Source of the DNA: a virus
Strand: one strand, 5' to 3'
Virus record (IMG/VR): IMGVR_UViG_3300046387_000909
Span: 1-29,781 of that record
Length of the DNA: 29,781 bases
The position numbers and the translations under genes were made by a program. Shown one piece after another: positions 3,977 through 28,574 of the stretch; the first letter of the stretch is position 1, and each line of letters begins with the position of its first letter. The notes under the pieces are model-generated. The model saw nothing but the letters and a program-made list of their open reading frames with translations. It was not told where the DNA came from and did no database searches.

Positions 3977-3981
3977 TGAAC

Positions 3982-4416: not shown

Positions 4417-4424
4417 GTGATACA

Positions 4425-6707: not shown

Positions 6708-6963
6708 CGGATGCGAAGTGACAATAGAGGTAGCCAAACCCACGTTCTTTGACGTGCAGTCTATGTCACCCATTTTCCTGAGTAGCGACCCGCAACTTGA
6801 GGATTACTGGCAAGAAGCATTCCGCCGATGGGTCACTGCAACACCTTCTATAGATTTCAAACAACTGTCAGCCGAGGATGGCGCTGAGATAGCAAAGATG
6901 CTACCAAGTCCATCCGAGGTGGTGAGTTGGCTAAATTTTCAACGAGCGAGGTCGGACGAATAA
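6697..6963 (+). CDS. Tail assembly chaperone, zero-frame product (G-like)
   Basis: This is an 88-residue protein from ATG 6697, just after GAGAGTGAT. An upstream in-frame GTG at 6664 is less likely because it lies deep inside the preceding gene. The sequence has a short N-terminal beta part (EIDGCEVTIEVAKPTFFDV) followed by helices (YWQEAFRRWV, AEIAKMLPSPSEVVSWLNF). In tailed viruses two overlapping small ORFs between the tube and tape-measure genes encode the chaperones that hold the tape measure during tail building (lambda gpG and gpG-T). The longer one arises by -1 frameshifting. Here the second ORF is in the -1 frame and overlaps the end of this one, with the slippery heptamer A_AAT_TTT at 6933-6939 in the correct phase. 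Function is inferred from this architecture and place rather than from sequence identity. Confidence 0.7.
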   Translation: MEIDGCEVTIEVAKPTFFDVQSMSPIFLSSDPQLEDYWQEAFRRWVTATPSIDFKQLSAEDGAEIAKMLPSPSEVVSWLNFQRARSDE

Positions 6964-7193: not shown

Positions 7194-7198
7194 GAACA

Positions 7199-7669
7199 AT
7201 GGTTGACGAAAAGATTGACACAGGTACGATGGAATCGATGAAGCGATTCTCCGAGTTTAGCGAAAAGTCACGTAACAACATGCGCTCGTTGCGTGAAGAG
7301 ATTCAAGAGTTCAACAAGGTCATGAACGCTGCTCATTCAACGACAGACAGCCTTCGTGAGTCCCTGCGACAGATGAGCAACGTACAGCCTGCACAACCAA
7401 TCACCGAAGCGCTTGAGGCGGAACGAACGACGGCTACAACAAACGCACGGGTTGCGAATTCCCCTAGCCCCGCACCATCTCAGTCAGCCGAGTCTGTTGG
7501 AATGAGTCAGAATGTCACCATCAATACGCTTCGCATCGACGTTAGCGGAGTAACCGACCGAAGCGACAAGCGAGCACTGGCACGTGAAATCAGCGAAATG
7601 GTTACAAAAGAACTGCGAGCAAAGATGGGCGGTCCGCTGTCCACATCAGGATTAAATCGAGGTGTTTGA
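7199..7669 (+). CDS. Short tape-measure-like tail protein
   Basis: This is a 156-residue protein from ATG 7199, preceded by GAGTGAG (7188-7194); GTG 7190 is in frame but falls inside the signal. Residues 1-65 are a charged helical region likely to form a coiled coil (MKRFSEFSEKSRNNMRSLRE). Residues 70-100 are a Pro/Ala/Ser/Thr linker. Residues 104-145 contain NVTINTLRIDVSGVTDRSDK followed by a helix ALAREISEMVTKELRAKM. That C-terminal pattern of a short strand, SGVTD and an amphipathic helix resembles the end of many tape measure proteins. The gene directly follows the chaperone pair, the fixed place for the tape measure. The oddity is its size: tape measures normally have 600-2,000 or more residues. 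It may be a minimal tape measure for a very short tail, or a separate initiator protein. Confidence 0.55.
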   Translation: MVDEKIDTGTMESMKRFSEFSEKSRNNMRSLREEIQEFNKVMNAAHSTTDSLRESLRQMSNVQPAQPITEALEAERTTATTNARVANSPSPAPSQSAESVGMSQNVTINTLRIDVSGVTDRSDKRALAREISEMVTKELRAKMGGPLSTSGLNRGV

Positions 7670-7676
7670 TTTGGTT
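7660..7676 (+). repeat. 17-base junction repeat, copy 1 (ribosome binding site plus TTG start)
   Basis: AGGTGTTTGATTTGGTT is identical to 10835-10851. It carries the upstream stop (TGA 7667-7669), an AGGTG ribosome binding site and a TTG six bases later. Both copies sit at the same kind of gene junction. Confidence 0.8.
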
Positions 7677-9398: not shown

Positions 9399-9407
9399 GG
9401 TGAAAAG

Positions 9408-10844
9408 ATGTCGTTACCAGTTCGTTTGATGTTCGGCGATAATAAATTCACCATACCTGTTCAGGCTGAGGAGATTACCATGGCAGTGCATCGCAAGTTG
9501 CATGCTTTTCCGATACCGTTCGACGGCTCACAGCGAATAGGTATAGATACAAACATGGCATCCATGCAAATGAACATGTCTCTTATCTTACAAGACGATA
9601 CGGTGGCATTACCAAGAGGTAGTGGGCAACCCCTTGTCAATATGTTGAATTTTGCTAAATTCAAAACTGGTGTCACCGCTGATTCGTTTCGCTCCATCGG
9701 CTCAATTGAAAAGGTTATACGACTACCAGTGATTGCTTTTTCTCAGAGTTTAGTTTACGCAACGCTTACAGATTTCAATCAATCAGGAATAAAGTTAGTG
9801 ATGGACGGAACAACTACATCCAATTTAGCCGGAGGTTCAGGCAATCCGTCGGTTCGTTCAGGTCACAATTTAATAGAAAACGGACAGGTGATAATTGATG
9901 TTCCAGTTGGGGGAATACATACCGTTTCAAATCCTGCAACAACAATTGCACTCGCTGTAAAGCAAGCCCTTGAACTGACAACAAACATCACCAATCTATC
10001 AACAGGGGTTGACAATGCAGGCGGTACACGAGTTGTTGATGTGTTCAATGTCACTGTTTCTCCTGACAACGATACTGTTCTGATTGTTGAACAGAAGTAC
10101 ATTGACCGTACCCAAGAGCATTCATTTTCTGTATTTGTTTACCCGTCTGAGGTCGTAACAACAACGGTAGTTGTAGGCTCAGGTTTAACTTTTTCAGGTA
10201 CGACAAATTCATGGAAACTTGTAAAAAAAGGAGAACTGCTGACTTCGACATTCCAATTGTCAAAAAATCTTCCGCCTACTGGCATAGTTGGGAACTTGAT
10301 GAGTGCAGGCGATAAGGCTCAAACACTTCTTGGGCTGTTGGCAAATGCAAAGACATCAACTGACTTGCTCAGGGGTATACAGATACCTTACGACTCACTC
10401 ATACAGTCAAATGCGGTTACACCGGAGGTTCGGAACTTCTTTACAACGTACGGTCGTACAACATCACCTGATGATAAAAGTTCAGATGGAAACACACTAC
10501 CTGCCTCTAAGCCGATGATTGCACCTTCAAAGACTTCAAAAGATGGTCAGAGTGTCCTTGATGACAGTGAACAAGAAGAATCTATCCCTGACATGCTTCT
10601 AGGCGCAGTTGATGATGTGTTGGACTTAGCGTTCAGTGCGTTTGGACTTGATAATCTCTATGACGGTTTGAAAGATATAGGGGCGGCTACAATCGATGCG
10701 TTGAAGGGTGAAGTATCATCCCAATCAAGAGCAAACGGTATTTACGTTTTGCCTGAAAACTTTCATTTACGCAAGGAGGCTGGGAAGAACTACTACGTGG
10801 CCGACCTCGATTTGATTATGGTTCACAAAGTGGCAGGTGTTTGA
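9408..10844 (+). CDS. Tail/baseplate protein, second of two tandem paralogs
   Basis: This is a 478-residue protein from ATG 9408, with GAGGTGA (9397-9403) four bases upstream. It is clearly homologous to the preceding protein. Shared landmarks are HAFPIPFDGSQRIGIDTNMA near residue 32, GNLMSAGDKAQTLLGLLAN near residue 296, RGIQIPYDS near residue 322, NFFTTYGR near residue 344, and SRANGIYVLPENFHLR followed by DLDLIMVHKV at the end. The middle contains a Thr/Val-rich beta domain. A segment absent from the neighbour (about 355-435) carries an acidic low-complexity stretch and two helices. Such pairs can build a hetero-oligomeric ring or hub-adaptor stack. The function is inferred only from position. 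The last codons form part of the 17-base junction repeat. Confidence 0.6.
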   Translation: MSLPVRLMFGDNKFTIPVQAEEITMAVHRKLHAFPIPFDGSQRIGIDTNMASMQMNMSLILQDDTVALPRGSGQPLVNMLNFAKFKTGVTADSFRSIGSIEKVIRLPVIAFSQSLVYATLTDFNQSGIKLVMDGTTTSNLAGGSGNPSVRSGHNLIENGQVIIDVPVGGIHTVSNPATTIALAVKQALELTTNITNLSTGVDNAGGTRVVDVFNVTVSPDNDTVLIVEQKYIDRTQEHSFSVFVYPSEVVTTTVVVGSGLTFSGTTNSWKLVKKGELLTSTFQLSKNLPPTGIVGNLMSAGDKAQTLLGLLANAKTSTDLLRGIQIPYDSLIQSNAVTPEVRNFFTTYGRTTSPDDKSSDGNTLPASKPMIAPSKTSKDGQSVLDDSEQEESIPDMLLGAVDDVLDLAFSAFGLDNLYDGLKDIGAATIDALKGEVSSQSRANGIYVLPENFHLRKEAGKNYYVADLDLIMVHKVAGV

Positions 10845-10851
10845 TTTGGTT
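10835..10851 (+). repeat. 17-base junction repeat, copy 2 (ribosome binding site plus TTG start)
   Basis: It is an exact copy of 7660-7676. It contains TGA 10842-10844 of the upstream gene, AGGTG, and TTG 10846 six bases later, the probable start of the giant gene. Confidence 0.8.
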
Positions 10852-13800
10852 GTATCGGCGGACTCCACATATGCCATGCGATTCAACGGTATCTCGGATG
10901 CTGTCGTTGTACCCATGCAAAAATTTGCACAGGATGCAGGCAACTACCAAAAGGGTGCTTCCGTAAATGATACAAGTATACCGAATGTACTTGATGCGTT
11001 TACATTGGAAGCATGGGTTATTCCCGATTCGGGGGGCATCGTGTGGGAATACGAACATGTTATGCGACTTGTCGTTGGTGCTCCGTCAAGTAGTGCACCG
11101 GCTGCCTTTCAAGTAAAATTGAGAAGCAAGAGCACAGGTGATGAAAACACATTCACGCTCAGCAGTGCAAGACCCATCACTGATTCTGACGGCAACGTCT
11201 CTCACTATGATGGTGTTGTTTATCCACGTCCTGCCACCTTTGCTCATGATTCATACGATGCACTTGACGGTATCAAAAACAACAACGCAGCCGTGCATGA
11301 TGGGCACAGGGAACTTTTACAAGTCGCATTCGTGTTTGACAAGCGCCATTTGTCGCTACGCATTAACGGAGATGTTGTTGCGACAAGGACTCTTTCAACT
11401 GACCACGAACTTGTTGTATACCCAACTCAGATATTCATGGGCGGTCAAGGCGGTGAGTTCCGTGGAACAATCGAGGCGATTCATTGGGCACGAGGTGCAC
11501 ATGACAGTAGTGTTGATTCGTATGCTCCAGTCACTACAGATTCGACGCTTGGTCTTTGGCGATTTGAGGAACCGATTGAACCCATCTCGACCATACTTAC
11601 ACTACCATCACTTTCAGCATCAACGTCAGCCAACTCGACGGTTACAATCGGAACAACAGAAGCCCAGTCACTCATCGACACACTGACAGGTAAGAGTGGC
11701 ATTACTTCGCTTGACTTGACTTCGACTGCTTATTCAGCAGGAAATTACACTGTGACGAAGAATGCAGCCAACTCAGAAAGCACAATTACAATTCCACAAG
11801 TATCTTTCAACTTACTCATCAACCCTCTCGGCTACAATCGGACAACTGGCGTACCCAATCGTGAGGCACCTGAACGTGCACGTCTGATGAATGTTGATGC
11901 AAGTGCTGGCACGATTACGGTCGAAAGCATACACCTTGACTTTGTTTCAAACGCAACAAACGGACGACGTGGGTTGCTTATGGCACATAGTGCGAGTGAT
12001 GCAGTGATTGTCATCGGTGACTGTCTTGTCGATAGTGGAACCGGTAATCAAGGCGTAGGTACAGGTACGCAGTTTTCAAACAGGCAAGGTCAAGTCGTTA
12101 TTGACGAAAGTGACTTTGAAAATCACGGCATTGTGTTTTCAACACGAATGTCCATTGTTGACGACCCGTACATGAAATACTCAGCGACTACAAACATGGG
12201 TCGCAATTTCACAGCAGGTCACACTGGTCGGCATATACTCAACCATGTCAAAAGCCACCCGTACATCGGTATGCTACCACGCCCAATCGAATCAGAAGTC
12301 GAGCAAAATATCGATGGTTCAGCATCTGTCATGACTGCAACGTTTGCTCCACAGTACGCAAACGTGCGTGACGCTGCACCTGCGAACTCAGTCGTGTCTT
12401 TCTATGACGTTTCAGGACCATTTACTGTCGCGGCAACCGCATATACATCAGTAGTTCAACAGGTTGTGGAAAATGGGATGGCGGGTATAACTGATTCAAA
12501 ACGAAACATACTCGCACTTGGTGTCGACGATGTAAGTAAATTTTTACTCAGGTCAGCCACCTCGACATCTGTCGATTCACTAACAACAGACTCAGATGAA
12601 CACATTCGCCACATGACGCCTTCATCTGTAGGTCGGACTGCGGTGTTAGAACTGCCATCACTTTTGCAGTACGACCGACCCGCAGTTGTACAAATCAAAT
12701 ACAGCGCTGTCGACATCACTGGGCGTGGTATCAAACACGCTGCTACTGCACGATTGACGACAGGAATAAGTGGTAGCGGAACTGTTCTGACATTTGCTTC
12801 TGTCAAGCAGTTCGGTGCTGACACTGATACAATTACTGCTGACCTTATCAGCATAGGAGGGGAAGTAGCAGGTGCAAGTTCAATTACTGCAACAATCAGT
12901 CATTCTGCAAACACACTCACGTTTTCGTCAGCCACGACAGGTGCGTTCCAATCAGCAGCAACTGCGAACGCAATCGTCAATTCATATCTCAGTCATGGAG
13001 CACTTCTCGTTGAGAGCACCTACCCTGATGTTGGCGAGGAAGTTACTTCGGGAACACGAATTATCGATTTAATTCACACAGATGTTGAAGCAGGCGAGGC
13101 TGTTGTTCATGCAGCAGGTGGTACAATAACGTGCATTAAAACACCTCAGATGGTGTTTAATGCTGGCGAACTAAACGGCGATGATGAAGAAGGGTATCAG
13201 ACTGAGCGTGCTCTTGATTTTACGATGTGTCCCGACAACTACCTCCCAGTCCACAGTTCCGATTCGCCGCAACTCAACCCACGCCGTATCGTTTCTCCTC
13301 GTGCGAGCAACAGCGCACGTGATTCGGTATTCAACAAAGTCGTCATCATACCAGCCAGTGGCGGTAATGATTCGTTCGTTATTGACAGCGAGGCTGAGTT
13401 AGTTCAGTCGAAACAAGGGCAGGTTCGTAGCAGTACTGGGGTCTTTGTGAACAACGGAAGTGGTTATTCCTCAGGGACTACAACGATAAACGTCGATGGT
13501 GCCAACGCTACGAACTTTTTCGGCGCAGGTACACGTCTTTTCAGCCTTAGTGGTGTTCAACTTGGTACGGTAGCCAGTTCAACAAGCACATCGATTACAT
13601 TGGCAGCAGGCTCAGTGCAAGCGGTTGTTGACAATGAAGAACTATTTTATCAGCCAGTTGCATCTTCAATAGGAACTACATCTCAAAGTAGTGGTGTACA
13701 TGAGGTATTTGACATCATTTCTCACACAGAAAACGGAATACAAGTCGACCTTGTAGTACAGCCTTCTGACCGCAATCGTTTCACACAACTGTCAAAGTTG

Positions 13801-16800
13801 TTCACAAACGAACAAGGGACAAGCGTACGAGCCAACCAGTTTGAAATTCACTATCTCATGGGGCGTGGCCGTGCGCTCACAATGTCTGACGGTGATGCAG
13901 GTACGTCTGTTCTCCGAGCACATGGACTTGGGGCTGACTTGGCTGCCAACTCAATCAGTGTCAAGGGTGACGGAGCACCTGATTCGTTCGTCGTCAAAGA
14001 GACCATGCCCGGTTCACCAGTCGTTACGGTAACGCTTGGAGGCGCAGGGCAGGGTGCTATCAATACAAAGCCAACATACAACCCTTCACCAACGGCTCGC
14101 CTCGGCTGGTCAACACGCCGAGACTGCTCAGCCCGATTATCGGCAACCTCCAGTACATCAGTCGGAGTTGTACCACTCAACAACAAATCGTCAGCCCTTG
14201 CTTCATGGGGCACATACTGCTTCCCCAAAGTTGGTCGAATATACTTTGGAGTTCCTGTGGAGTCAGGCGATAGTGCGACGAAGTATGCCTCAGCCGAATA
14301 CACAAGCAAAAACGGAACGTCGTTCACGTTCGCTTCGGGAACGGGTCATACTGGTAGTGGTAAGTTTGTACTTACTGATGGGTCTGAAAGCGATTCTTTC
14401 AGCGCTTGGCTGAGCGCTACTGGCGCAAAGGTAGGCTCAATCATCGAAGTCGACGACCAGTTCAACGAGGGTTCGATGTGCAACGACGGGACGACCATCA
14501 ACGACCGATTGTTCCAAACACTTGATACAGTACAACACGATTACCAACTCGGTACGCAGTATGCGAGCACACGTGCAATGGTCGAGATTCCTCTCTTCGA
14601 CGACTTCTTCTTTGAAAACGAGGACGAAGGCATCTTCCCCGGACCTGACAACAGCATGAAGTTGCATCTTGACCCAACGTATGCTGCTCCAACATGGGCG
14701 CCTAATCCTGTTGGTCGACGTGCACCATCAGTTGCACCCGAAGACCCAACAGTCAACAGCGCATTTTCGACATCAATCAAAACAAACTCGCATCGCCGAG
14801 GAACTGTGGTAAGTCAGCCCTACGAGTCAAGTAACCGACGCATCTATGTTCAAGATTACAAAGTCTTCCCCATCGCTACGGCTGCACCTGTTACCGTAGC
14901 ATCGATTGACGGTGCACTGCGCTACCGTCGTGCATTTTTGCCGTCAGGCGAGTGGGTGTTATACGACACTCGCAACACAGCCGGTTATCTTGAAGTAGCG
15001 GGTAGCACGACGGCTGATGACAACTGGGCGTTCAGCAAGAATTTCTTGCAGCAACTGTCGGTTGGTGTTTCAATCATTCCCGCTTCGGGCTTTCAGGACA
15101 TGAATTATCCGTCCATTGCTGACAATCCACTGGTTGACAGTGCAGGGTTTGAGGCTCGTCGACCTTATTACTATGACCGTGCAAACGTCATGACGCAAGG
15201 AGGCAACGTGGATTATGGCATGAAGCAATACGTTAGTGCCGTAGAGTTCCGTGCAGGCCCACGTGCAAATCCGCATCTCAAGCGCATTAAGAACAAGCGT
15301 GCTCGCTCGACATGTGCCTTTGCTTTCTTAGCAAATAATCTGTATCTCGCTGACATAACTGATTTCCCAAAAAGCATCGCACACGCTTCAAACTACAAAT
15401 ACAGAATTGCGTGGTGGAATGGGACTGTATACAAGTTTGCTCATTATGACACAATTAATACAACGACAGGGTTGATTGCATTAAACAATCTTGATGCAGG
15501 CTTTAGCCCACAGATTGGAGATGAAATCATCCTATGGGACATGCACGCACCCTCAGGCGTTTACCCTGAGGTCAAGGAAGACGCATTCTTGAACACGACT
15601 TGGGCAAACCCGTATTGCAACGGTGGTCTGCGAGCAGGTGATACCGTTTGGATGAACATGCATTACACAAATCCTCATGCAATCGAGGGGCTGTTCTGCA
15701 AGAGTCGAGGAACGCTCAATGAGGCTGAGGTATGGAGTGGATTCTTAGAAGGCGAAGGTGACTTTGCTACGACGCCACGTGAAAGCATAGCGATGGAGAA
15801 CTTCTTGATTGGTAATTCATGCATAGAGACTGCACGCAACTTCGTTCAGCACGTCAACAAAACTGTTGAACTAAATTACGAAGCGCTAGGACTAGATGCG
15901 ACGAACGCACCCACTGTAGCATACATCGACCCTTACCAATCAACTGAGGAGCATGCACGTGTACTGTTGTACGACGTAGCGCACGACCGTGAGTTCATTG
16001 CATTTCAAGACCTATGGATGCAAGTGCAGTCAAGCCCACAGGCTGCAACAATTGGTGATGAGCCGGAAGGAGCAGGTACTATCAACAACCAAACAACTGG
16101 AGCAGGTACAGGACTTGATGTCGCCAACGGCTTTCCTTCTCAAAACAAATCGCTTGCATCGACAACTCAGTCTGAGTTTATGGAAGCAGCCATGGCACAC
16201 AAATCGACATGGAATCTAAACGTTGATTTGAGCACACATTCTACTGGTTATCATGGGCATACACCGAGTGACCCTGACATTGACGGAGTACAAGTTCGTA
16301 CAAACAAAGCGGTAATGTCGGGTGCAAGAGACAACGCTAACGCTGACCATCAGCAAATAGATGTATCGACCACTGAAAACTCGACATTCTTTGATACACC
16401 TGATGGTACACGATGCATTCCCGTTTTCTTAGCGCTCAAGGGTATTCGTACAACGTCACTTGATTTGTCAACGCATGAAGAATCTCGCTTACAGCATTTG
16501 CCTCACTGGTCTGACATGGACTTTGTTCGACGTCTTACGATTGATTTTGGTGAGATTGGAATGAAAGACGGTATTCGTAACATCGAGGCGGCTGCTCGTG
16601 AAATCGTTCGCCTGATAAATCAAGCAGGTGCACCAAACGGACGAACACATGCACGAAAGCCTGCTGACCAATTCTTTGGCGAAAGTGAACGATTCGGCTT
16701 GTCACGCGTAGCAAATCAGGCTGACGTGACAAACGGCATCACCGACCCCACTGCTGCTCATCTCAACGCAGGCTTTGCTGCTACTGGAAGCACGCATGAC

Positions 16801-19800
16801 CCCTCTCCGTTTTGGGACAAAGAGCGAGCGTTTGCTTCGCATGACCGTGGTACACACATGGGCTACATGCGTGCTCACCTCGGTCGAGTTGTATCGGATT
16901 CAGGTGGTAAATCGGGATTCAGTATCATTATTCACAGCACAATACCCGGTGCGTCAGGCCGTAACTTCTGTGTGTGGCTTGACAATGCACGTGGTCAGTT
17001 GTCGTATAGACCGCAGTTCTTAATTGGACACGGTGGTCGATTCCGTAATTATTGGTGCCAGCCTGACGAAATGACAGGCGAAAACATGCACCCTGCACCC
17101 ATGCCAATCAATCGGTTTGGTCGTCCATTCGCACCAATCACGACGCTCAAAGAATATCTTCCGCCCGATGAGGTGGATGAACCATTCAGAAACAACCTTG
17201 AATTCGGACCTGAGACAACAGGTACATCGAGCAACATGGCTTCTTCAACCAGTGAAATCGCATCAGGTCGTAACTCCAACACAATCATTGACGAATCGTT
17301 TGAGGCGAAAAGCCCTGCCTCTCAACTCATCGATGGACTGCGTATTGGCACACCTGCACGTGCTCGTATCAACTTCGGCGGCTTGACACAGGCAGGCATA
17401 CCCGGTTGGGCACCCGACGCAGGTAACTGGGGCTTTGGTCGTGACCAACAAGATACTCGCTTTGAGCACATTTACGGTAATAACGTCGCTGCATTTGCAC
17501 AGCATGGAACAGTTGATGCTACATCAACTGGTGGTTACATACCTGATGAGCAATTGAGAACAGACAACATCGGCGACGGTCAACTGTACGGCATTCGTTT
17601 CGTCGACCACCGTGGCAAAAACCACACCATCCGTATGGTATATCGGCAACACGGTCAGGCGTTTGCAAACGACTTGACTGTACTACCATCAACGCTCGAC
17701 GACGAAGTTGTTATTCACTTCGATGACCGTGATGTAGGGCAGGGTGGATTCACTATTGGTAAGCACATGTTTGGAGAAGGTGACGTATGTGGAGAGTTTA
17801 CAACAGGTACAAAGAAGAAATTCAAAGGTAACCTGTGGAACAATTATCCGTCACCTGCGACTGGCATATCGGCGACTGTCCAAGTTGTCACAGTAAGTGG
17901 TGCTGATGCTCTCAAAATTACATTCACGGCTCCTTATGATACAGGTAGCACGTTGAATCATCCCGACATCTTGGGCTATCTTGGATTCCCTGAAAAGGGT
18001 ATGATTCAACTCAATGACGTAAATAGTACAGGGACTCCCGGTAACAATGGAGAGCCACTGTATTATCAAAGTCGTTCTAACTACGGCAAGGCAGGCGCAT
18101 CGGGCGTCCATTATTTGTACAATGTTGAGGGTAACACGACAGCATACGGCTCAGGTGTAACACGAATCATCTGTCCACGTATGTCGTTTACGTCTGTATT
18201 GACGGACGAGGTTATGGCTGCTGCCGTTGAGTTTGCCTTGACCATGGACGACCCGAACAGTGAGGATGTCAACAAAACCACATTTGACTGTACGCACATG
18301 CTTGCACCCGACGGTCGCACACTCGGCGAATGGGGTGTATCTCCTACAGCCATTCGTGTTAAATCACATTCAACATCGAAGCGCATCATTCCGCTACGAA
18401 AATTGTTTGAAGTTAGTCGTGAGAAAGACTGGGGATTCCAAGCAGGTGCATCCGTCCAAGCGACTGGTACTGACCACTTGGGCGGACTGAACTCTGATGA
18501 AATCGCTGACGGTGCTCGTCTTGATGTCGGTTACATACCTAAGACTGTACTACATATTACAACGAAGTATAGGGGAACGAATGCAAACACCGCAACACCT
18601 GTTCTTGTTGACAGCGCAAACAACGTCGTCGACACGATTGATTGGAAACAAAATTTACGGGGCAATACGTTCTATAGAACAGAAGGTGACCGTGTCATAC
18701 CGTGCGTCAACAGCCCTATGATTAACGTTCACCATACGAGCAGTACGGCCATTACGTTACCTGCAAGCCAATACCTGTATCTCATCACTACACCTGCATC
18801 GACTGATACAGATAGTTGGGCTGAAAAAATCACAGTATGGCTCGGCAGTGAAGAATCAGGTATTGTATCAAGCAAACCCGGCTCGACATCAACGACTGAA
18901 CTTGAGTTTGTAGCCGATTCAGCACAGTGGAGTGGAACAATTGCTAACAGCGACATCCTTGTAAGGCAAGGTTCTATAGAATACTCTTCTGAAGTAGGAG
19001 GCATTCGTCGAGCAGGCAGTCATCATGGTGAGCCGTTCTTGCACTTCCGAGGCGCACACGATAGCCCTGACCACTGGGTACCGCTGTATTTTGGTGGCGG
19101 ATTTTCAGGCGTAACGCTTGATGTCAACGACGGAACACAAAACGACTACAGTGAGTTCTATGAACATCCATACTCAGGTGGACCAACAGGCTCGGCTGGA
19201 TTACAAAACGTCGGTGAAATAGCAGGCTCATACGCTTTGCTCGATGCAAACGCAATGCTCGCTATGTTCCCCGGAACTCCTTATCTTGACCAACATGAAG
19301 GTCGCAACAGCATGCCATTCTTCAATCAAGATGCCATGCTGTCATTTGATTTAGATGCGGGAACCAGCAAATTCAACGCTGCCACTGGTGTGACGTATAC
19401 GGACAGTTCAACCACTGTTCGCTGTCAGCGACCAAGTCCAATTGTTCTTCGATTCTCACACCCACACGCTCGTTACACTGCAACAGGTAATACGACTGAC
19501 CATACAACGTACATGATTTTCGGCCCCGGTCAAAGCGTGCCTCACAACTTTGCAGCACACGAACCGCAATTGTCGAGCATTGTTACGGGCGGTAACGGCT
19601 ACAGCGCTGTGCCTACTGGTAAGAATTTGCCTAACGAGATTGCACACGGTGCAGCCAGCCGTAATGGATTCAGTGCTCACTTGCCACCTACTGCCGAGTA
19701 TCAGAAAGGTAACGTGCAAGGCTACAACTATGTTATGAATTGGGAACCATCTAAAGGTCAACCGAACAGTACATTGTTTGCTCAGACGGCAGGGCAAGGG

Positions 19801-22800
19801 TTGTTTTACGATACACAAATGACCGCAACAAACCCACCTGCTCACGCCCACCCGATGTCATATGTATTTACGAATTATGCAGGTGTTGCAATGGGCGCAT
19901 CAGGTCTCGCCACAACACTCGCACGCTCGTGCGTTTGGCACATGGACGGAGGATATCACCCCGGCGGTCATTTCCTCGACAACCACATCGAACGCAACCC
20001 AAAGCACCCAGTATCAACTCATCGTATATCGACTGGCTCAAACGCTCAGCAAAACCCTACAGTATTCCGTGTGTCGTCTTTGTTAGGAACTGCTTACTTG
20101 GGTACATTTGGAGGCGACACAAACATGACAAGCAACGCAGATTACGTTGTTATCGACGCTACTCGTGCACAGAACGCCGAGGAACTTGCCACGATTGTTT
20201 CAGCAGGTGTCAATACATTCCCCGGAACTGACCCACTCAAAGCGATTGGTGGTACGTTCCTGCCCTCGTTCCAAACCGCTGCCAAACAAGACCGATACGG
20301 TTGGGTTGAACTAACGATGGCTACTGGTGGGTATACTGCCGAAAGTGGCGCTGCTGCAACATTACAGGCCAACGCATCTATTCCCACAACATTGCCTCAA
20401 TACGGTTGGCTGCGTATTACAGACGGAGGTTCAAACGTAGGCTTTGCATCTTATGCTTCTTACAGTAGCGCTACGTTTACACTGGCGAAAAACTTGACAA
20501 CTACAACCAATATAGTCGACCCGACAACAAAGGCTGCGGTTACAGCATCGACTATCAATGGATTAGGAGCAGGTGCTGTCAAAATTTACGTGTGGACTAA
20601 AGCAGGTACCCATCGTTACAACAACACCTCCGAAGCCCGTAACCACATGACACAAGTCCACTACAGTGGATATGTCGATGCTGTTGACCGAACCAAGCCA
20701 ATCGGAGCAGTTGGTTGGTCAGGTGAAGCGTACTCCTATCTTAACTCGTACAACGGTACCCAAATCGGTAGCACCAAGTTCCCTGCTGGCAAAGGTGCAT
20801 GGCACCCGTTCCTCGGATTCAATCCATACGGGGCAGCCGAATCTTGTTTGTCAGGCAGTTCACCCGTTGGTGCTGACTCAATGCCTGCAAGTGTCACCGA
20901 GCAATCTTGCGAGATTGGTTTGGCCTCACGTCATTTGATTGCTATCACACACGAAAGCGAGATGCCTTTGATTGCAAAGGCTGACCGTGATGGTATTCTT
21001 TGTGCAGGTGACTGGCTTGACCTCAAACGGGGTGGAAATATTACACACGCAGGTACAACCCAGTGGGACACTGCGAAGGTACACAATCGTGACCGATACG
21101 TCGGTCCCGCTACAGCAGGTCCGCACGTTGAAGCGATGATGATGACCGATGTAAGTTCCTACCCACAAACCGCATCATACCCTGCCGTTGGTACAGAAAC
21201 GTACTGGCACAGCGCCCTTGGTACGAGTGGCATTGAGCGTGCTGACCCTTGTCAAAGCCCTACGGGTGATTTATTTTGGGACGAGTCAAAGGTCACTGCG
21301 AGTCAGTTCCACGAAGACACTGCCACATACGGGGTTACGTGCAAGGGTGTTTCAACACTGACTGAGTACAGTGCAACTGCTACTGGTATTTACAAATTCT
21401 ATAAAGAAGAACATCCTGCTCGCAACTTCAACGAAGAACACATCGTATGGAAGCGCATGGACGGCGGTAATCTTACTATGCCTGCTGTCAACGCACGGGG
21501 TCTTGGTATGGTACCGTGGGTCTATAGAAAGGATGGCGGAGCCTACAAGAAGGTTGGTGAGAAGATACTTGGAAACAATCGATTTTCGTTTGAAACGACA
21601 AACGGTGCGATGTTCCCAATCATTCAGGCACAGGAGTTATCACACCCGCAACTGGCTGAGCAAAATCAATTTACCACGAAGATTGAAGATGCCTTGCTCA
21701 TTCCAAACGAAGAGATTCAGTTCCAAAGCCTACAGGTTGTTGACGACACTGGACAAGAGCACAGAATCGCAGGCGGCAGTCCGCTTGGAACAGTCATTCT
21801 TGATTTCAGACATCTAAGTGATAGAGAAATAGAGGGCTTGTCACCTGCACTTGCAGGTTCAGGCATATCGCCCAACTTGAAAATACGACTACCTGACCCT
21901 GACGACATTCCGGGCAACATCATTGTTCGACCGAGTTTTGACCGTATACAAGGCTATCAGAACGAAACGATGGGTAGCGGTGGTATGCAACATCCATCAC
22001 AGCCTCAGCAGGCGATTACGGATATGTTCAACAACGCTCAGCCCGGACCACGTGCTTGGCCTACGTGGGAGAATAACGGGTGGGAGCATCTGAGTCAAGA
22101 TGGCACAGACATATCAACAGCAAAGAGTAAGACACGACTCGGCTCTCCTGACTCTTCTGTTGAAGGTTGGTCAGACCACACAAACAACAACCCACTTGAA
22201 ACAGCCTACGAGCCACATGACCGTTCGCTACAATTCCACATTACACGCATGGGTGTAACAATGACGCACCGTGACGACGTTGATGAGTTGTCTTTTACTT
22301 CATTGTCAGGCGATGAAATCGACGTCGGGTCAACACCTGAACCGGCTGTTTGGAAGGTCACCAGTGAACAAAGCGGCGGTCGTTGGTTCTTGCGAGTCTA
22401 TGACCCGACAACAAACAAAGGTGTTCTTGCATCCTACACTAATACAGGTACAAACAAATTCACTGGTGTTGTTGTATCTCCTGATTTTGTATCGTTCGTC
22501 ACAGGAAAGACTGGCCTCAAAGTCGTACCTTCATACTTCATGCCTGCGGGTAGTACACGTTTCTTTGCATCGCGTCGATTGCGTGACCACAGCGAATACA
22601 GTGGCTCAAGCCCTGACATGCCGAACGTTGATTGGGTAGGCATGACTGGTGATACTGCTAATGCGTATCTTTACCTGACAAATCCCAAGATGACACCTAT
22701 GCCTATCCCTCGTATGGGTCATCATTACGTTACACCGACAATGGCACTGCTACCCGGTCATTACGCTCACCCTGCTTATCAGCGAATGTACGATTTACAC

Positions 22801-25800
22801 CTTGCTTGTCGAAGTGCATCCAACAAACCGTATGAAGATGAATTCTTGGGTAGTAGTGATGTGGTCGACAAGGGATTCGGTCGTGACCCGCTTGTATGGT
22901 TCAGCGGACCGACGGCAGCGTTTGCCCCGTCTGACATTCACGGTGGCGCGTTTACGCTCATGACTGAGACGAAGGTCAAATACGATGGTTATGGTATCGC
23001 TGCATCGAACGGTTCGGCAGGGACAACCAACTCACAAGGCGGACATTCAATTGTGTTGGAAGCAGCAGGTACGTACACGCTTGACAATCACTTCCCTGAC
23101 CCGATGGAAGTCGGAGCGTATCAGATTATCATTCAGCCGAACGTGTTCTCACAACAGATTACTGGTTACCATCTCAATCACAGCGATGCAACCAAAGCCC
23201 CATCTGAGTCAGGTACGAAGGTAACTGAATTAACAGGGCAACAAGTCAACACTGTCATCGCCATAGAGCATGACAAATCCAACCTTGGTGCAATGACGCT
23301 TGTCCTTGCCGAAGCAACGATGGCCGACGTAAGAGGTTGTGAAATCATCATCAACGAAGTCATACTTGACTTGGAACCTGATGCGGGAAGTCAATTCACC
23401 AACATACCTACACTGGGATTGTATAACCCGCTTGGCGTTGATGAAACTGCTTCACCTGCGTTTACACGTCGTAGCCTGCCATATCGACCGAACATGTTTA
23501 TTCAAACAACACCGGGTATGACCACAACAGTACCATGGTGGGCACAGTTGCACAAAGATGGTGCACGCAACAGTTCGGCTGACGAGTTCAAGTTCCTTGA
23601 GTGGCACACACCCGACCATTACTATCAACTCAATCGACCTGCGTTTGGTGCGGTTGGTGCACAGATTACGCTTGCAGGTTTCTCAACAATCTACCCTGAC
23701 ATCTACGGTGAGCACTATCGGGCACGTAGCCTAAATCCAAGTTGCGTCGTCATTTCGTCTGATGCCAGCGCACAGACTGTCACAGTCGACAGCAACGAGT
23801 TGTTCCCTGTCGAGCCGTACTACGGTGAGGTGTTGGAGTATATCGATGCTGATGGTGAGCGTCGTACGGCTACTTACACTAATCGCACGGGTACACTGGC
23901 ACACGCTACATTGGCTGCTGCTACGATATTTGAAGGGGTATCGACAGCCAACCTGTTCTTTACAAACCTGACAGCAGGCACAGTCCTACGACTCAGCGGA
24001 CCATACGATAACAGAAAGGCAGGCGAGGTGTTCAAGGATTCCAAATCGAGCATTGCTACACGCACCCTTGCTCAGACGTTCGCAGGCACACGAGATACCA
24101 ACTCGTTACATACACCTGATGCATTCTTGTGTATGTGGCATCCAAATCTCGGTCGCCCCTATACATACTACTCAGATGACAGCAGTCGTTCGTTCTATAG
24201 CGCCACAGGTGCAGCCGACTCACCTGTCAACGAAGCATCGCTCAACAACATCCCTGAGCACTTTGAAACGATTCACTATCACGACTTCTTCTATGCAGCA
24301 TCAAAGGGTCCGTTTGCACTTGGCATGAAGTGGGTCGCTCCGCCGCACGATGCTGATAACGATGCTTCAACAGCCGACTTGCACGATGGAACGGTGTACA
24401 CCGCTGCACAGATGGATGCACTGGTCGACGGAACGGGTACACTCGACCACCAAGGTGGTACAGATGGCTCAGACAAATACAACTTTGCAGGTTACTGGCC
24501 GAGTGGTTCTCGTGGAGGCGCAGGTTCAAGTCGCCTCGACGGATTCCTTGAGGCTGTCATTGGATGGGGCGGTAAGTTGTTCGGCATCGATTGTGTAGGG
24601 TTCCGTGACGACAGCGGTATCGAAGAACGCACGTATGCACAGATGACTTCCGATTCAGACCATGCACGAAACACATGCTTCGGTTACCGGTTTTCGGTAA
24701 GACAGCCGTACAATCGACCACGGTGGTCTCCGTACGTGCGAGGGTGGATTGAAGGTACACAAGCCAACGCATTGCTCGGTTACTACCATGGTCCGTTTGT
24801 TCAGCAAGATAGCAAAACAGGTGGCTGGGATTACGTTGGTGCTGACACGTATCATGCATCTTCAAATCCCGACGGACAATCCGACGCAGACTTCCCCGCT
24901 ACCTACACTGGTATACTGGAGCGACTGACTCAAATCAGTGCTATGCTCAATCAAGACCAAATCGGTCGACAGGTACGATACAGCGACGGTCGTCGTATGA
25001 CACAACCGTTTGGTTGCCCTGTACGAACAGTGCGTAACTCTTCATCCGTTCGACGCATGTACCCGAATGACCACGCAGGTTTGGGTATTGCTGAACTTGC
25101 TCAGGCTCATCGCTTCTACTTAATTGACTGGTGGGGCAACACGCGTGGTGAAGACGTGCGTCGATTCCCAGTACGTGGGTTTGGTATTCGACCTGCGTGG
25201 GACCCTGAGGATGCTTACGCTGACACCAACGTTGCACATCGACCTGCTGCGAACAGCCTGTTCGGTGGTGACGGCACTGACCGTTACAGCGGTAACGCCA
25301 ACAATGACAACAACGCATCTTCAAACATGGGTACTGCGGACTGGTTTAACCCTGCCAGCGCCATGCGAGTGGGTGACCGTGGTGACGGACGTGGTGTTCG
25401 TTGGCCTACACACTTCAACGAGAGCCTGTTAGCCGATGTATCTGAAACAGTCGAGCCAACAGGATTGGTTGTCTCACAACCTACTGCTGAACCAACTGTA
25501 GGAAAAGGATTGATTCGCCCACGAAACGATGTACTACAAACTGACGAAGTCGAACGTGGTATCAGCAATCGACTTGGTCTTGCTGATGAAGATGGGTTGC
25601 TCAAACCGACCGCTATGGTCAGTGAAGGTGTTGAGTCAGTAACTGCTAACTCGCTGTTGGCCGAGCCTGTTGGCGGTGACGGCGTACGTGCGGGACTTGA
25701 CGTTGATACCCTTGGTGAACTCAATGACGGCATCAGTCGTGAGTACGTCATCATGAGCACAGAAGCACACAGCCTGCACACTGACCGTGAGGTCGGACAA

Positions 25801-26574
25801 CGTACGACACTGCGTGGAGCACTCAACATCGGCAGTCAGACACTTGGACATCTCGACATGACATCACTCTCTTGGAGTGGACAGCCTGTCAAGGGTGTAC
25901 TGCGTGTATCGAACGCTCACGCATTTTGGGCGCTCGGTGGCACATACGTGATGGATTGGTCGGTGCGAGAAGGTGTACTGTCCGACTTCGGCTGGGGTGC
26001 AACTGCTGCGGCTGATTCAACGAACCCGTATCAGGATGCGAACCATTCCCCAAAGATTGACCGTACGAACAACACGGACAGCACAATCGAGTTCTTACTG
26101 CGCCCAGTCATGACACTTGACAAGTCACACATCCAAATGTTCCGACACAACCCTGTTGTGACAGGCAGTACACCACAGGCCAGCCCGAACTTCTATGCAG
26201 CCACAGGTGGTTGCAAGTATGGCTTCTATGTCAGTGACGCACCGTCAGCCCGTACAGGTACGCCTTCGTCGCCTCCATACAAGCCAGTGTATGCCATCAA
26301 GCCTGCAAGTAGCGTGACCACTTCAACGAGCGACGGTCCGAAGATTCTTGGCGTCGACGTAACAGGATATACGAAGACTGATGTAACACAGCCAGTCGCT
26401 CGTATTGTCATGAGCGAAAACACGCTTGAGCACTTCCGCAGCGATGCACCTCGTCGATTGGCTGAGGACGGCGAGTCTGACTTCTCAGTGCAACCACGAC
26501 ACAGCCAAACCTTACACCCGAAGGGCAGTTCGGGCGATACGTCTTTTAACACGGGCGACCACAGTGGAGAGTGA
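10846..26574 (+). CDS. Giant tail-tip / host-recognition protein with N-terminal LamG-like lectin domain
   Basis: This is a single open frame of 15.7 kb, giving 5,242 residues from TTG 10846 (5,245 from GTG 10837). Residues about 8-246 show a LamG/concanavalin-like jelly roll: AMRFNGISDAVVVP, FTLEAWVIPDSGGIVWE, LSLRINGDVVATRTL, IFMGGQGGEFRGTIEAIHWA and LGLWRFEEP. The remainder is almost wholly beta-rich, with much Thr, Ser, Gly, Asn, Asp and His and scattered single cysteines. There is no membrane segment, no long coiled coil and no simple tandem repeat. Barrel-like modules recur near 13462-13640, 15319-15545 and 23740-24020. A His-rich patch (WHMDGGYHPGGHF) lies near residue 3031. An aromatic/Arg motif (YLIDWWGNTRGEDVRRFPVR) lies near residue 4758. 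The position between baseplate paralogs and the hub suggests a tail-tip adhesin or scaffold reaching the host surface. Tape-measure function is unlikely given the beta content. Confidence 0.65.
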   Translation: MVVSADSTYAMRFNGISDAVVVPMQKFAQDAGNYQKGASVNDTSIPNVLDAFTLEAWVIPDSGGIVWEYEHVMRLVVGAPSSSAPAAFQVKLRSKSTGDENTFTLSSARPITDSDGNVSHYDGVVYPRPATFAHDSYDALDGIKNNNAAVHDGHRELLQVAFVFDKRHLSLRINGDVVATRTLSTDHELVVYPTQIFMGGQGGEFRGTIEAIHWARGAHDSSVDSYAPVTTDSTLGLWRFEEPIEPISTILTLPSLSASTSANSTVTIGTTEAQSLIDTLTGKSGITSLDLTSTAYSAGNYTVTKNAANSESTITIPQVSFNLLINPLGYNRTTGVPNREAPERARLMNVDASAGTITVESIHLDFVSNATNGRRGLLMAHSASDAVIVIGDCLVDSGTGNQGVGTGTQFSNRQGQVVIDESDFENHGIVFSTRMSIVDDPYMKYSATTNMGRNFTAGHTGRHILNHVKSHPYIGMLPRPIESEVEQNIDGSASVMTATFAPQYANVRDAAPANSVVSFYDVSGPFTVAATAYTSVVQQVVENGMAGITDSKRNILALGVDDVSKFLLRSATSTSVDSLTTDSDEHIRHMTPSSVGRTAVLELPSLLQYDRPAVVQIKYSAVDITGRGIKHAATARLTTGISGSGTVLTFASVKQFGADTDTITADLISIGGEVAGASSITATISHSANTLTFSSATTGAFQSAATANAIVNSYLSHGALLVESTYPDVGEEVTSGTRIIDLIHTDVEAGEAVVHAAGGTITCIKTPQMVFNAGELNGDDEEGYQTERALDFTMCPDNYLPVHSSDSPQLNPRRIVSPRASNSARDSVFNKVVIIPASGGNDSFVIDSEAELVQSKQGQVRSSTGVFVNNGSGYSSGTTTINVDGANATNFFGAGTRLFSLSGVQLGTVASSTSTSITLAAGSVQAVVDNEELFYQPVASSIGTTSQSSGVHEVFDIISHTENGIQVDLVVQPSDRNRFTQLSKLFTNEQGTSVRANQFEIHYLMGRGRALTMSDGDAGTSVLRAHGLGADLAANSISVKGDGAPDSFVVKETMPGSPVVTVTLGGAGQGAINTKPTYNPSPTARLGWSTRRDCSARLSATSSTSVGVVPLNNKSSALASWGTYCFPKVGRIYFGVPVESGDSATKYASAEYTSKNGTSFTFASGTGHTGSGKFVLTDGSESDSFSAWLSATGAKVGSIIEVDDQFNEGSMCNDGTTINDRLFQTLDTVQHDYQLGTQYASTRAMVEIPLFDDFFFENEDEGIFPGPDNSMKLHLDPTYAAPTWAPNPVGRRAPSVAPEDPTVNSAFSTSIKTNSHRRGTVVSQPYESSNRRIYVQDYKVFPIATAAPVTVASIDGALRYRRAFLPSGEWVLYDTRNTAGYLEVAGSTTADDNWAFSKNFLQQLSVGVSIIPASGFQDMNYPSIADNPLVDSAGFEARRPYYYDRANVMTQGGNVDYGMKQYVSAVEFRAGPRANPHLKRIKNKRARSTCAFAFLANNLYLADITDFPKSIAHASNYKYRIAWWNGTVYKFAHYDTINTTTGLIALNNLDAGFSPQIGDEIILWDMHAPSGVYPEVKEDAFLNTTWANPYCNGGLRAGDTVWMNMHYTNPHAIEGLFCKSRGTLNEAEVWSGFLEGEGDFATTPRESIAMENFLIGNSCIETARNFVQHVNKTVELNYEALGLDATNAPTVAYIDPYQSTEEHARVLLYDVAHDREFIAFQDLWMQVQSSPQAATIGDEPEGAGTINNQTTGAGTGLDVANGFPSQNKSLASTTQSEFMEAAMAHKSTWNLNVDLSTHSTGYHGHTPSDPDIDGVQVRTNKAVMSGARDNANADHQQIDVSTTENSTFFDTPDGTRCIPVFLALKGIRTTSLDLSTHEESRLQHLPHWSDMDFVRRLTIDFGEIGMKDGIRNIEAAAREIVRLINQAGAPNGRTHARKPADQFFGESERFGLSRVANQADVTNGITDPTAAHLNAGFAATGSTHDPSPFWDKERAFASHDRGTHMGYMRAHLGRVVSDSGGKSGFSIIIHSTIPGASGRNFCVWLDNARGQLSYRPQFLIGHGGRFRNYWCQPDEMTGENMHPAPMPINRFGRPFAPITTLKEYLPPDEVDEPFRNNLEFGPETTGTSSNMASSTSEIASGRNSNTIIDESFEAKSPASQLIDGLRIGTPARARINFGGLTQAGIPGWAPDAGNWGFGRDQQDTRFEHIYGNNVAAFAQHGTVDATSTGGYIPDEQLRTDNIGDGQLYGIRFVDHRGKNHTIRMVYRQHGQAFANDLTVLPSTLDDEVVIHFDDRDVGQGGFTIGKHMFGEGDVCGEFTTGTKKKFKGNLWNNYPSPATGISATVQVVTVSGADALKITFTAPYDTGSTLNHPDILGYLGFPEKGMIQLNDVNSTGTPGNNGEPLYYQSRSNYGKAGASGVHYLYNVEGNTTAYGSGVTRIICPRMSFTSVLTDEVMAAAVEFALTMDDPNSEDVNKTTFDCTHMLAPDGRTLGEWGVSPTAIRVKSHSTSKRIIPLRKLFEVSREKDWGFQAGASVQATGTDHLGGLNSDEIADGARLDVGYIPKTVLHITTKYRGTNANTATPVLVDSANNVVDTIDWKQNLRGNTFYRTEGDRVIPCVNSPMINVHHTSSTAITLPASQYLYLITTPASTDTDSWAEKITVWLGSEESGIVSSKPGSTSTTELEFVADSAQWSGTIANSDILVRQGSIEYSSEVGGIRRAGSHHGEPFLHFRGAHDSPDHWVPLYFGGGFSGVTLDVNDGTQNDYSEFYEHPYSGGPTGSAGLQNVGEIAGSYALLDANAMLAMFPGTPYLDQHEGRNSMPFFNQDAMLSFDLDAGTSKFNAATGVTYTDSSTTVRCQRPSPIVLRFSHPHARYTATGNTTDHTTYMIFGPGQSVPHNFAAHEPQLSSIVTGGNGYSAVPTGKNLPNEIAHGAASRNGFSAHLPPTAEYQKGNVQGYNYVMNWEPSKGQPNSTLFAQTAGQGLFYDTQMTATNPPAHAHPMSYVFTNYAGVAMGASGLATTLARSCVWHMDGGYHPGGHFLDNHIERNPKHPVSTHRISTGSNAQQNPTVFRVSSLLGTAYLGTFGGDTNMTSNADYVVIDATRAQNAEELATIVSAGVNTFPGTDPLKAIGGTFLPSFQTAAKQDRYGWVELTMATGGYTAESGAAATLQANASIPTTLPQYGWLRITDGGSNVGFASYASYSSATFTLAKNLTTTTNIVDPTTKAAVTASTINGLGAGAVKIYVWTKAGTHRYNNTSEARNHMTQVHYSGYVDAVDRTKPIGAVGWSGEAYSYLNSYNGTQIGSTKFPAGKGAWHPFLGFNPYGAAESCLSGSSPVGADSMPASVTEQSCEIGLASRHLIAITHESEMPLIAKADRDGILCAGDWLDLKRGGNITHAGTTQWDTAKVHNRDRYVGPATAGPHVEAMMMTDVSSYPQTASYPAVGTETYWHSALGTSGIERADPCQSPTGDLFWDESKVTASQFHEDTATYGVTCKGVSTLTEYSATATGIYKFYKEEHPARNFNEEHIVWKRMDGGNLTMPAVNARGLGMVPWVYRKDGGAYKKVGEKILGNNRFSFETTNGAMFPIIQAQELSHPQLAEQNQFTTKIEDALLIPNEEIQFQSLQVVDDTGQEHRIAGGSPLGTVILDFRHLSDREIEGLSPALAGSGISPNLKIRLPDPDDIPGNIIVRPSFDRIQGYQNETMGSGGMQHPSQPQQAITDMFNNAQPGPRAWPTWENNGWEHLSQDGTDISTAKSKTRLGSPDSSVEGWSDHTNNNPLETAYEPHDRSLQFHITRMGVTMTHRDDVDELSFTSLSGDEIDVGSTPEPAVWKVTSEQSGGRWFLRVYDPTTNKGVLASYTNTGTNKFTGVVVSPDFVSFVTGKTGLKVVPSYFMPAGSTRFFASRRLRDHSEYSGSSPDMPNVDWVGMTGDTANAYLYLTNPKMTPMPIPRMGHHYVTPTMALLPGHYAHPAYQRMYDLHLACRSASNKPYEDEFLGSSDVVDKGFGRDPLVWFSGPTAAFAPSDIHGGAFTLMTETKVKYDGYGIAASNGSAGTTNSQGGHSIVLEAAGTYTLDNHFPDPMEVGAYQIIIQPNVFSQQITGYHLNHSDATKAPSESGTKVTELTGQQVNTVIAIEHDKSNLGAMTLVLAEATMADVRGCEIIINEVILDLEPDAGSQFTNIPTLGLYNPLGVDETASPAFTRRSLPYRPNMFIQTTPGMTTTVPWWAQLHKDGARNSSADEFKFLEWHTPDHYYQLNRPAFGAVGAQITLAGFSTIYPDIYGEHYRARSLNPSCVVISSDASAQTVTVDSNELFPVEPYYGEVLEYIDADGERRTATYTNRTGTLAHATLAAATIFEGVSTANLFFTNLTAGTVLRLSGPYDNRKAGEVFKDSKSSIATRTLAQTFAGTRDTNSLHTPDAFLCMWHPNLGRPYTYYSDDSSRSFYSATGAADSPVNEASLNNIPEHFETIHYHDFFYAASKGPFALGMKWVAPPHDADNDASTADLHDGTVYTAAQMDALVDGTGTLDHQGGTDGSDKYNFAGYWPSGSRGGAGSSRLDGFLEAVIGWGGKLFGIDCVGFRDDSGIEERTYAQMTSDSDHARNTCFGYRFSVRQPYNRPRWSPYVRGWIEGTQANALLGYYHGPFVQQDSKTGGWDYVGADTYHASSNPDGQSDADFPATYTGILERLTQISAMLNQDQIGRQVRYSDGRRMTQPFGCPVRTVRNSSSVRRMYPNDHAGLGIAELAQAHRFYLIDWWGNTRGEDVRRFPVRGFGIRPAWDPEDAYADTNVAHRPAANSLFGGDGTDRYSGNANNDNNASSNMGTADWFNPASAMRVGDRGDGRGVRWPTHFNESLLADVSETVEPTGLVVSQPTAEPTVGKGLIRPRNDVLQTDEVERGISNRLGLADEDGLLKPTAMVSEGVESVTANSLLAEPVGGDGVRAGLDVDTLGELNDGISREYVIMSTEAHSLHTDREVGQRTTLRGALNIGSQTLGHLDMTSLSWSGQPVKGVLRVSNAHAFWALGGTYVMDWSVREGVLSDFGWGATAAADSTNPYQDANHSPKIDRTNNTDSTIEFLLRPVMTLDKSHIQMFRHNPVVTGSTPQASPNFYAATGGCKYGFYVSDAPSARTGTPSSPPYKPVYAIKPASSVTTSTSDGPKILGVDVTGYTKTDVTQPVARIVMSENTLEHFRSDAPRRLAEDGESDFSVQPRHSQTLHPKGSSGDTSFNTGDHSGE

Positions 26575-27173: not shown

Positions 27174-28574
27174 ATGGCTGACGCATACAACAGAACGACA
27201 GGGCGATTTAGCGAAGCCCAGTCAACTGTCATGAAGCGTGTTCGCAAACCGTCGTTTGTTGACAACGCTGTGCGTCACGCTACGTACGTGTCGTCGGCTA
27301 CCAAGCGTGTAGCAGGCTCGCCTGTGCGTACAGACTTTGAGTCGTCGACCGACAAGACCTACACACTATCAGAAGAGGACGACACCATCCGAATCGAACA
27401 CACATCGTCGGGTGGGAACAGATTCAGGGGCGGTGTCTTCCACGGAGACGACCAGTTCGACGCTTCGTCGACTGTCCCCTCGCTGTTTGTCAATGTCGAT
27501 GACAGTAAACAACGTCTCGCACCACATTCTATAGAAACAGCAACGAAGGGTACACGAATTCGCCTGAATAACCTCAAGGGTCGCAGCCTGATTGACATGG
27601 GATTCGACGGTAAGCGCTTGCAAATCGCACAACCAGTGGCTGTCGGCCTTCGGACGAGTGACTTGGCTGAACGAATCGTCACGGAGGGTAGGAAAACACT
27701 CTCAGGTTTCCGTATTTCGGCACCAAGTAACGTGTTTGTGGCAAAGAATATCAACAATGTGGACGCTTTGACTGCTTTGCGATACTTAGCAAGGCACGAT
27801 GGCTTCATGACAAAGACCGACTCTCATGGAATGGTTAGTTACGTGCATCAGTTGCGTGGCAATAGGTCGGTTTACATTCATCAAGACATGGTTTCTGACG
27901 GTATCAACGAAGAAAACATGGACGCAGCACCGAATAGAGTAACTGTGCGTGGAAAACGACGTGCGAACAATGACGATAACATCATTCAGGTCGACGATAT
28001 TGAGTCTCAGAAGGATGGAGTGCGTGAAGTGCAGGGTGGTATCTTTGCACCGACGGCAAACAACCGTAATGCGACCAAAAACATCGGTCGGAAGTTCTTG
28101 GCTACTGCAAAGCGTGCAAAAGGAGCCAAAATGTTGACCGGAACCATCAATTCGATGGCTGTACGTGCCGGTGACATCGTTTCGTTCCAAGATATTGGCG
28201 AAAAAACCCAAGATATTGTCCTACGAGTGCGTCACAACCTCACCGAGCGCCGTTCTGACATCAAAGTGTCGTCAATAGAGGGTAGTTTGGAAGATTTGAT
28301 ACAACGAGCGCAAGAAGGCGACATTTCTTCGATGTTTGACGACGGACAAGAGGAAAAACAGCAGGTCAAAGAGAAAAACTACGCTGTCAGCGCTACAATG
28401 ACCGTCAAAACCACTTGGGTCATCGCTGCAAGGCAAGTTCGACCCGAAGGAATGATAATTGGGCATCCTACAAGGGGATTGATTAAAGGAGATGGCTCAG
28501 TAGCCGAAGCAGACAACGTATTGTTGACGCTGGGGACATCTCAATCGAAATGGATAGTAAAGGGGAATGGTTGA
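27174..28574 (+). CDS. Tail hub protein, gpD/gp27-like
   Basis: This is a 466-residue protein from ATG 27174, three bases after GAGTGAT (27164-27170). Several features follow the late-control gpD / T4 gp27 hub plan. There is an N-terminal beta domain with an FRGGVFHGDDQFD segment. Near residues 185-226 comes a helix and hairpin (VDALTALRYLARHDGFMTKT, then GMVSYVHQ). Near residues 253-290 is a strand NRVTVRGKRR, then VDDIESQKDGVREVQGG. Next is a long helix (ATKNIGRKFLATAKRAKGAK), and MAVRAGDIVSFQDI near residue 327, the usual 'pGDiV' barrel strand. The hub forms the ring below the tube through which the tail tip is attached. A Glu/Gln/Lys-rich linker near residue 395 precedes a C-terminal extension of about 70 residues that could bind the spike or fibre adaptor. 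Its own upstream stop is doubled (TGATAG). Confidence 0.65.
   Translation: MADAYNRTTGRFSEAQSTVMKRVRKPSFVDNAVRHATYVSSATKRVAGSPVRTDFESSTDKTYTLSEEDDTIRIEHTSSGGNRFRGGVFHGDDQFDASSTVPSLFVNVDDSKQRLAPHSIETATKGTRIRLNNLKGRSLIDMGFDGKRLQIAQPVAVGLRTSDLAERIVTEGRKTLSGFRISAPSNVFVAKNINNVDALTALRYLARHDGFMTKTDSHGMVSYVHQLRGNRSVYIHQDMVSDGINEENMDAAPNRVTVRGKRRANNDDNIIQVDDIESQKDGVREVQGGIFAPTANNRNATKNIGRKFLATAKRAKGAKMLTGTINSMAVRAGDIVSFQDIGEKTQDIVLRVRHNLTERRSDIKVSSIEGSLEDLIQRAQEGDISSMFDDGQEEKQQVKEKNYAVSATMTVKTTWVIAARQVRPEGMIIGHPTRGLIKGDGSVAEADNVLLTLGTSQSKWIVKGNG

Follow-up and report, generated by a model that had tools for sequence, protein, structure and literature searches.

The window analyzed here, a 29,781-base virus record that is itself a genome fragment (29.8 kb), contained a 15.7-kb gene for a giant tail protein, which is probably the core scaffold of the tail tip, with a lectin-bearing end that would face outward and interchangeable modules on its surface. 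Gene order, conservation, and domain type are the grounds for placing the protein in the virion and at the tail tip. The gene fills about 15% of the genome and represents the largest single investment of a virus belonging to the magrovirus type, members of which are known only from metagenomes and their virions only from gene lists. It offers a marker as well as a structural target, in which the conserved core, the lectin end, the hypervariable upstream gene pair, and the module sites can each be tested separately.

The frame at positions 10837-26574 comprised 5,245 sense codons with no internal stops, versus 149-361 stops in each of the other five frames over the same interval. GTG at 10837 was the sole upstream alternative start and gives 5,245 residues; TTG at 10846 gives 5,242. 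Because the codon at 10846 is ATG in one relative (G005) and other relatives have a methionine near the same place, sequence comparison makes TTG 10846, or a codon close to it, most likely the start. Residue numbers of the giant count from the GTG, and those of the structure models from the TTG (three lower). The product has a mass of approximately 566 kDa, a pI of 5.3, and a Gly, Ser, Thr, and Asn content of 33%; its composition is nowhere helical, and no clear transmembrane stretch was found by hydropathy. The longest exact internal repeat was six residues, and an all-against-all profile comparison of 250-residue tiles yielded only one weak pair (50-57%; starts 1376 and 4126-4251). Recognizable repeats thus do not make up the protein. 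The first-pass annotation had described the size, the composition, and the absence of simple repeats correctly, and its statement that no enzyme motif accounts for the size agrees with our searches, in which no enzyme family was found. Its reading of the uninterrupted frame as a true gene was also borne out, as the frame is open in relatives and under strong constraint.

The first 800 residues, used as a query in IMG/VR, retrieved 33 relatives, and a profile of the most conserved stretch found relatives of the giant in at least 204 contigs, 80 of which were kept for analysis. The giant was approximately 43-93% identical to that of the window in the kept set and 58-62% identical from end to end in an initial set of 13 distant relatives with complete genes. 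Both gene ends lay inside the locus in 40 loci, including a few near-duplicates, with a protein length of 5,098-6,002 amino acids; one additional giant ORF, of at least 6,046 amino acids, reached a locus end. The dN/dS ratio against three close relatives was 0.006-0.113 per 350-codon block wherever computable, and the entire giant is under purifying selection. The tail tube gene was present in 80 loci, with the giant further down the module in 65 of them, and the remaining 15 loci end before the giant or just at its start. Therefore, the complete loci, the dN/dS values, and the tube-gene loci establish the giant as a fixed part of the virus lineage rather than an artefact. Frame breaks in two relatives were exceptions; one of these sequences contains undetermined bases, and the other break is compatible with a small indel. 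A fusion of separate genes by an assembly or frame error, which the first-pass annotation had named as what would overturn its reading, is practically inconceivable given complete loci from many metagenomes, dN/dS far below 1 throughout, and constant flanking genes, and nothing was found in its favor.

The gene lies in a tail module in which the order connector, terminator, tube, two small ORFs, 159-residue protein, baseplate-like pair, giant, and downstream gene is the same in relatives (Table 1), and this position supports its earlier designation as a tail protein.

Table 1. Features of the tail module and of the giant tail gene in the window.
Feature	Position	Strand	Evidence or remark
Connector-type protein, HVTV-1 gp125 homologue	2321..3976	+	hhalign 96%; phrog_17057
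Tail-terminator-position protein, HVTV-1 gp127 homologue	3973..4416	+	hhalign 94%
Major tail tube protein, 677 aa, HVTV-1 gp128-related	4425..6458	+	hhalign 64%; weak Phage_tube_2
Two small overlapping ORFs, tail assembly chaperone position	6664..7193	+	position only
159-aa protein, tape-measure position, helical by composition	7190..7669	+	weak phrog_1068 (E 0.03); position versus HVTV-1 gp131
Baseplate-like protein 1, fast evolving	7662..9398	+	paralogue of the 9408..10844 gene; near relatives 63-67% identical
Baseplate-like protein 2, fast evolving	9408..10844	+	paralogue of the 7662..9398 gene
Giant tail protein gene	10846..26574	+	open frame, start comparison, complete relatives, dN/dS
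Predicted ConA-like lectin (LamG/pentraxin) jelly roll	10861..11565	+	model residues ~6-240, range approximate
NNALY-type beta module, residues 865-937	13429..13647	+	HMM; located elsewhere in other viruses
Most conserved core stretch, residues 2001-2200	16837..17436	+	no known homologue
Highly conserved C-terminal stretch, residues 4701-5245	24937..26571	+	conservation
Small gene with HESVH (HExxH-like) motif	26588-27169		directly 3' of the giant
Conserved tail-module protein, tentatively hub-like	27174..28574	+	conserved in 57 ORFs

The match of the 159-residue protein to HVTV-1 gp131 by hhalign was not significant. The usual tape-measure ruler is 0.15 nm per residue, and if it applies here, 159 residues suggest a very short tail of near 24 nm. 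The two baseplate-like proteins share common N- and C-terminal motifs. For the protein encoded downstream, the label hub-like is kept tentative since no PDB or Pfam match was found. The slot directly after the giant held different genes or none in relatives, resembling a cargo position, and the HESVH protein was ruled out as a processing protease of the giant because its gene is not conserved in relatives. A similar N-terminal motif (MDEAWRVLK, EQAWDLLKA, EQAWLLLKA) was seen in unrelated small proteins, at 26588 in the window, at about 2423 in L096, and at about 7332 in L100 (87332 in G019). Positions 270-2285 of the window encode a charged protein of 671 amino acids with a helical composition, for which the fetched loci contained no relative; in G028 this slot is occupied by ORFs of 1,089 and 189 amino acids, and in G019 by one of 147 amino acids.

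Long relatives of the window had genomes of 97-109 kb, and PolB was found in nine of nine relatives, with the structural genes on the other strand. One of them (G028) carries genes for a portal, terminase, S78 protease, chaperonin, RFC-like ATPase, SNF2-type helicase, and HMG-CoA lyase, and its major capsid protein (MCP) had its best annotated matches in the Druskaviridae (33%, by match ranking and not by a tree). PolB, the RFC-like ATPase, and the chaperonin are known from these relatives, and none of them is on the window fragment. Genome size (approximately 90-110 kb), PolB-centered archaeal replication genes opposite the structural module, RFC, chaperonin, and HMG-CoA lyase are in common with the Magrovirales (Apasviridae and Aoguangviridae), Poseidoniales-associated viruses whose ICTV profiles, unlike our loci, name only tail fibre or baseplate proteins and no giant (PMC12999244, PMC10768690). 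An MCP clade unites magroviruses and the Druskaviridae (PMC8651126), and magroviruses have been reported among the commonest marine viruses (PMC10160649). Judged by the gene content of its relatives, the virus is a magrovirus-type archaeal member of the Caudoviricetes; the presumed Poseidoniales host is taken from the literature. As a query in the phage record collection, the giant returned no homologue, and the ICTV exemplars are apparently not among these records. A scan of the genome collection returned only three contigs (L101, L102, and L103) with pieces of the giant gene, in public bacterial MAGs labelled Cytophagaceae and Maricaulis; these matches were judged probable binning errors, and both taxa were set aside as hosts. 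Additionally, L092 has a Cpn60_TCP1 chaperonin gene (7000-8493) that is encoded on the opposite strand, immediately after the tail module ends.

The comparison of relatives proposed in the first-pass annotation separated variable from conserved parts of the giant. Mean pair identity rises from the N- to the C-terminus (0.74 for residues 1-1000, 0.80 for 1001-4000, and 0.86 for 4001-5245), with low-identity spots near residues 801-1000, 2601, 3801, and 4301. Distant relatives were 58-62% identical in the giant, about 57% in the tube, about 43% in the downstream gene, and 32-33% in the baseplate-like pair. For the near relative G004, identity was 99% in the tube, 100% in the terminator, 93% in the giant, 98% in the downstream gene, and 64-68% in the baseplate-like pair; generally, the pair was 63-73% identical in viruses whose giant is approximately 93% identical. 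Overall, conservation of the giant is similar to that of the tail tube, and the upstream pair is the most variable. Because the pair varies and the giant is conserved, the pair (7662-10844) provides the better, and on sequence grounds the best, candidates for host-range determinants.

For residues 1-997, numbered from the TTG, an AlphaFold2 (AF2) model built on 45 aligned sequences had a mean pLDDT of 81 and a pTM of 0.80, and was mostly beta, with a lectin followed by further mainly beta domains. The first 240 or so residues matched PAPP-A LamG chains (Z 15.8) and PTX3 (Z 13-14) in a comparison with known folds (VIA-align). Laminin_G_3 (Pfam) was detected in 8 of the 45 members at E 0.001 or better (best E 2.6e-08); the score of the window itself was 15.2 bits, below the Pfam cut-off of 27.6. 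According to the model, the giant starts with a ConA-like lectin (Laminin_G_3) fold, which may bind glycans. The structure search with the N-terminal model listed many phage lectin-domain proteins, and the whole model matched BFVD fragment 1 of A0A1B1IU10 (E 4e-66, TM 0.74, 26% identity). This unnamed viral protein in UniProt is a homologue over the entire N-terminal model, carries no name or function in the tables, and was compared by its 1,377-residue fragment only. Foldseek matches to botulinum binding domains and neurexins were attributed to the common jelly-roll fold, and no kinship is claimed.

No match to residues 1000-4230 was found by profile in the PDB or in Pfam, where two of four tiles were scanned across all members and the other tiles with the window sequence alone; known baseplate, hub, and fibre proteins likewise gave no confident match. 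Searches of the middle and C-terminal regions against Pfam, PHROGs, and PDB profiles gave nothing above chance, and a thrombospondin match (E 0.6) was discarded. The structure model of residues 4230-5245 had a pLDDT of 43 and was left out of the fold search; an obligate oligomer, contact with other proteins, or a poor alignment would explain this result. The domain-by-domain fold search that had been recommended thus gave a confident model with a lectin fold for residues 1-997 and no confident model for 4230-5245.

Across the giants of the relatives, insertions of at least 40 amino acids were counted at as many as 26 positions; some of these are neighbors and may represent a single site. Many inserts formed families of modules (70-110 amino acids) that recurred at different positions in HMM searches: 24 domains at 7 positions for the GSGY type, 24 domains at 11 positions for the GMAVSG type, and 10 domains at 6 positions for the EHANGH type, with position counts that depend on the alignment. 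Most relatives had the NNALY-type module near residue 900, and it was found at four other positions as well; in G008, a 76-residue copy was inserted in frame at residue 5157, between flanks close to those of the window. Some relatives had an extra LamG domain near residue 5060 or beta-propeller-like inserts near 4503, the latter assigned by eye. The modules also turned up elsewhere in these viruses, in ORFs that include those of the connector type. The connector of L003, a close relative, has 768 amino acids versus 551 in the window, and its extra 220 or so residues, between conserved halves, are possibly another insertion of the module kind. The GSGY module was found in 118 phage records, nearly all from cyanophages, in which structural proteins (phrog_697) carry a 70-80-residue module of this type with up to 46% identity; the module is in common, but the scaffold is not. 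It is conceivable, although we would not give it even chances, that the giant works like a pegboard: a universal tail-tip scaffold, among whose loop positions and neighbors at least four small beta-module families move, at least one of them common to cyanophages. Exchange of modules would then alter the surface properties on an unchanged scaffold. As part of this reading, folding of the giant may be assisted by the virus chaperonin, whose gene is a few kilobases from it.

In the arrangement that we favor, a single giant, mainly beta chain would build the tail tip (baseplate), with the conserved middle and C-terminal parts forming a scaffold beside the proteins of the neighboring genes. The variable, lectin-led N-terminal 1,000 residues would probably point outward, small beta modules at loop positions would decorate the scaffold and may add glycan or particle binding, and the fast-evolving upstream paralogues probably carry much of the host specificity. 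Points against the scaffold are that neither residues 1000-4230 nor the downstream protein confidently resembled a known tail component, that the C-terminal model was poor, and that an N-terminal lectin and a conserved C-terminus are the reverse of the usual fibre polarity. The giant might instead bind receptors as a long tail fibre and act as the main determinant of host range, as the N-terminal lectin fold, the richness in Thr, Ser, Gly, and Asn, the higher variability of residues 1-1000, and the extra domains, LamG among them, inserted in some relatives would allow. We consider this unlikely, since the giant is conserved like the tube, the two upstream genes vary far more, and a good monomer fold is predicted for the N-terminal fifth, in contrast to a trimeric fibre with intertwined chains. 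The same evidence divides the earlier proposal of an elongated host-contact structure: host contact fits best the N-terminal 1,000 residues, with their lectin and lowest conservation, and the modules, but fits less well a giant that evolves overall at the rate of the tube below a hypervariable paralogous pair. An elongated shape was not borne out; the modelled N-terminal fifth comprises several domains in one chain and gave a good monomer prediction.

Cleavage of the giant after translation into several tail proteins would account for its size, is compatible with the sequence, and could draw on the S78-type prohead protease encoded in relatives. Nevertheless, no conserved protease adjoins the giant, no separate known proteins are recognizable within it, and no relative was found with the giant split into separate genes, which makes such a polyprotein improbable. 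It is still harder to regard the giant as the tail-length ruler, even though the tape-measure position holds only a 159-residue protein, no long helical protein is encoded between the tube and baseplate genes, and tape measures of 5,002 residues exist (PMC10770324). Tape measures are long, mainly helical, and often transmembrane; here, the modelled N-terminal fifth is mainly beta, in line with the original argument against a tape measure, and the rest, judged by composition and hydropathy, is nowhere helical and has no clear transmembrane stretch. In addition, the giant follows the baseplate-like pair and not directly the genes in the chaperone position. Therefore, a tape-measure role is highly improbable, and a tail-tip scaffold remains the preferred reading.

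Phage tails are known to carry lectin and decoration domains. The tail module of HVTV-1 (Druskaviridae) has a homologous MCP (33%), connector, terminator, and tube, but it has a 480-residue tape measure and no giant gene. Regarding the suggestion that the protein is among the largest of viruses, viral polyproteins can be longer, coronavirus pp1ab being an example. The giant does exceed the 5,002-residue tape measure of phage P23-45, itself called 'giant' (PMC10770324). The P23-45 protein is likewise a single giant tail protein of comparable size, but it is a tape measure with an N-terminal RNA polymerase, and no relationship is indicated (PMC10770324). Our literature search found no giant tail gene described for these viruses, although a prior mention is possible. 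What appears to be new is a longer, lineage-wide tail protein that is not a tape measure and carries relocating modules.
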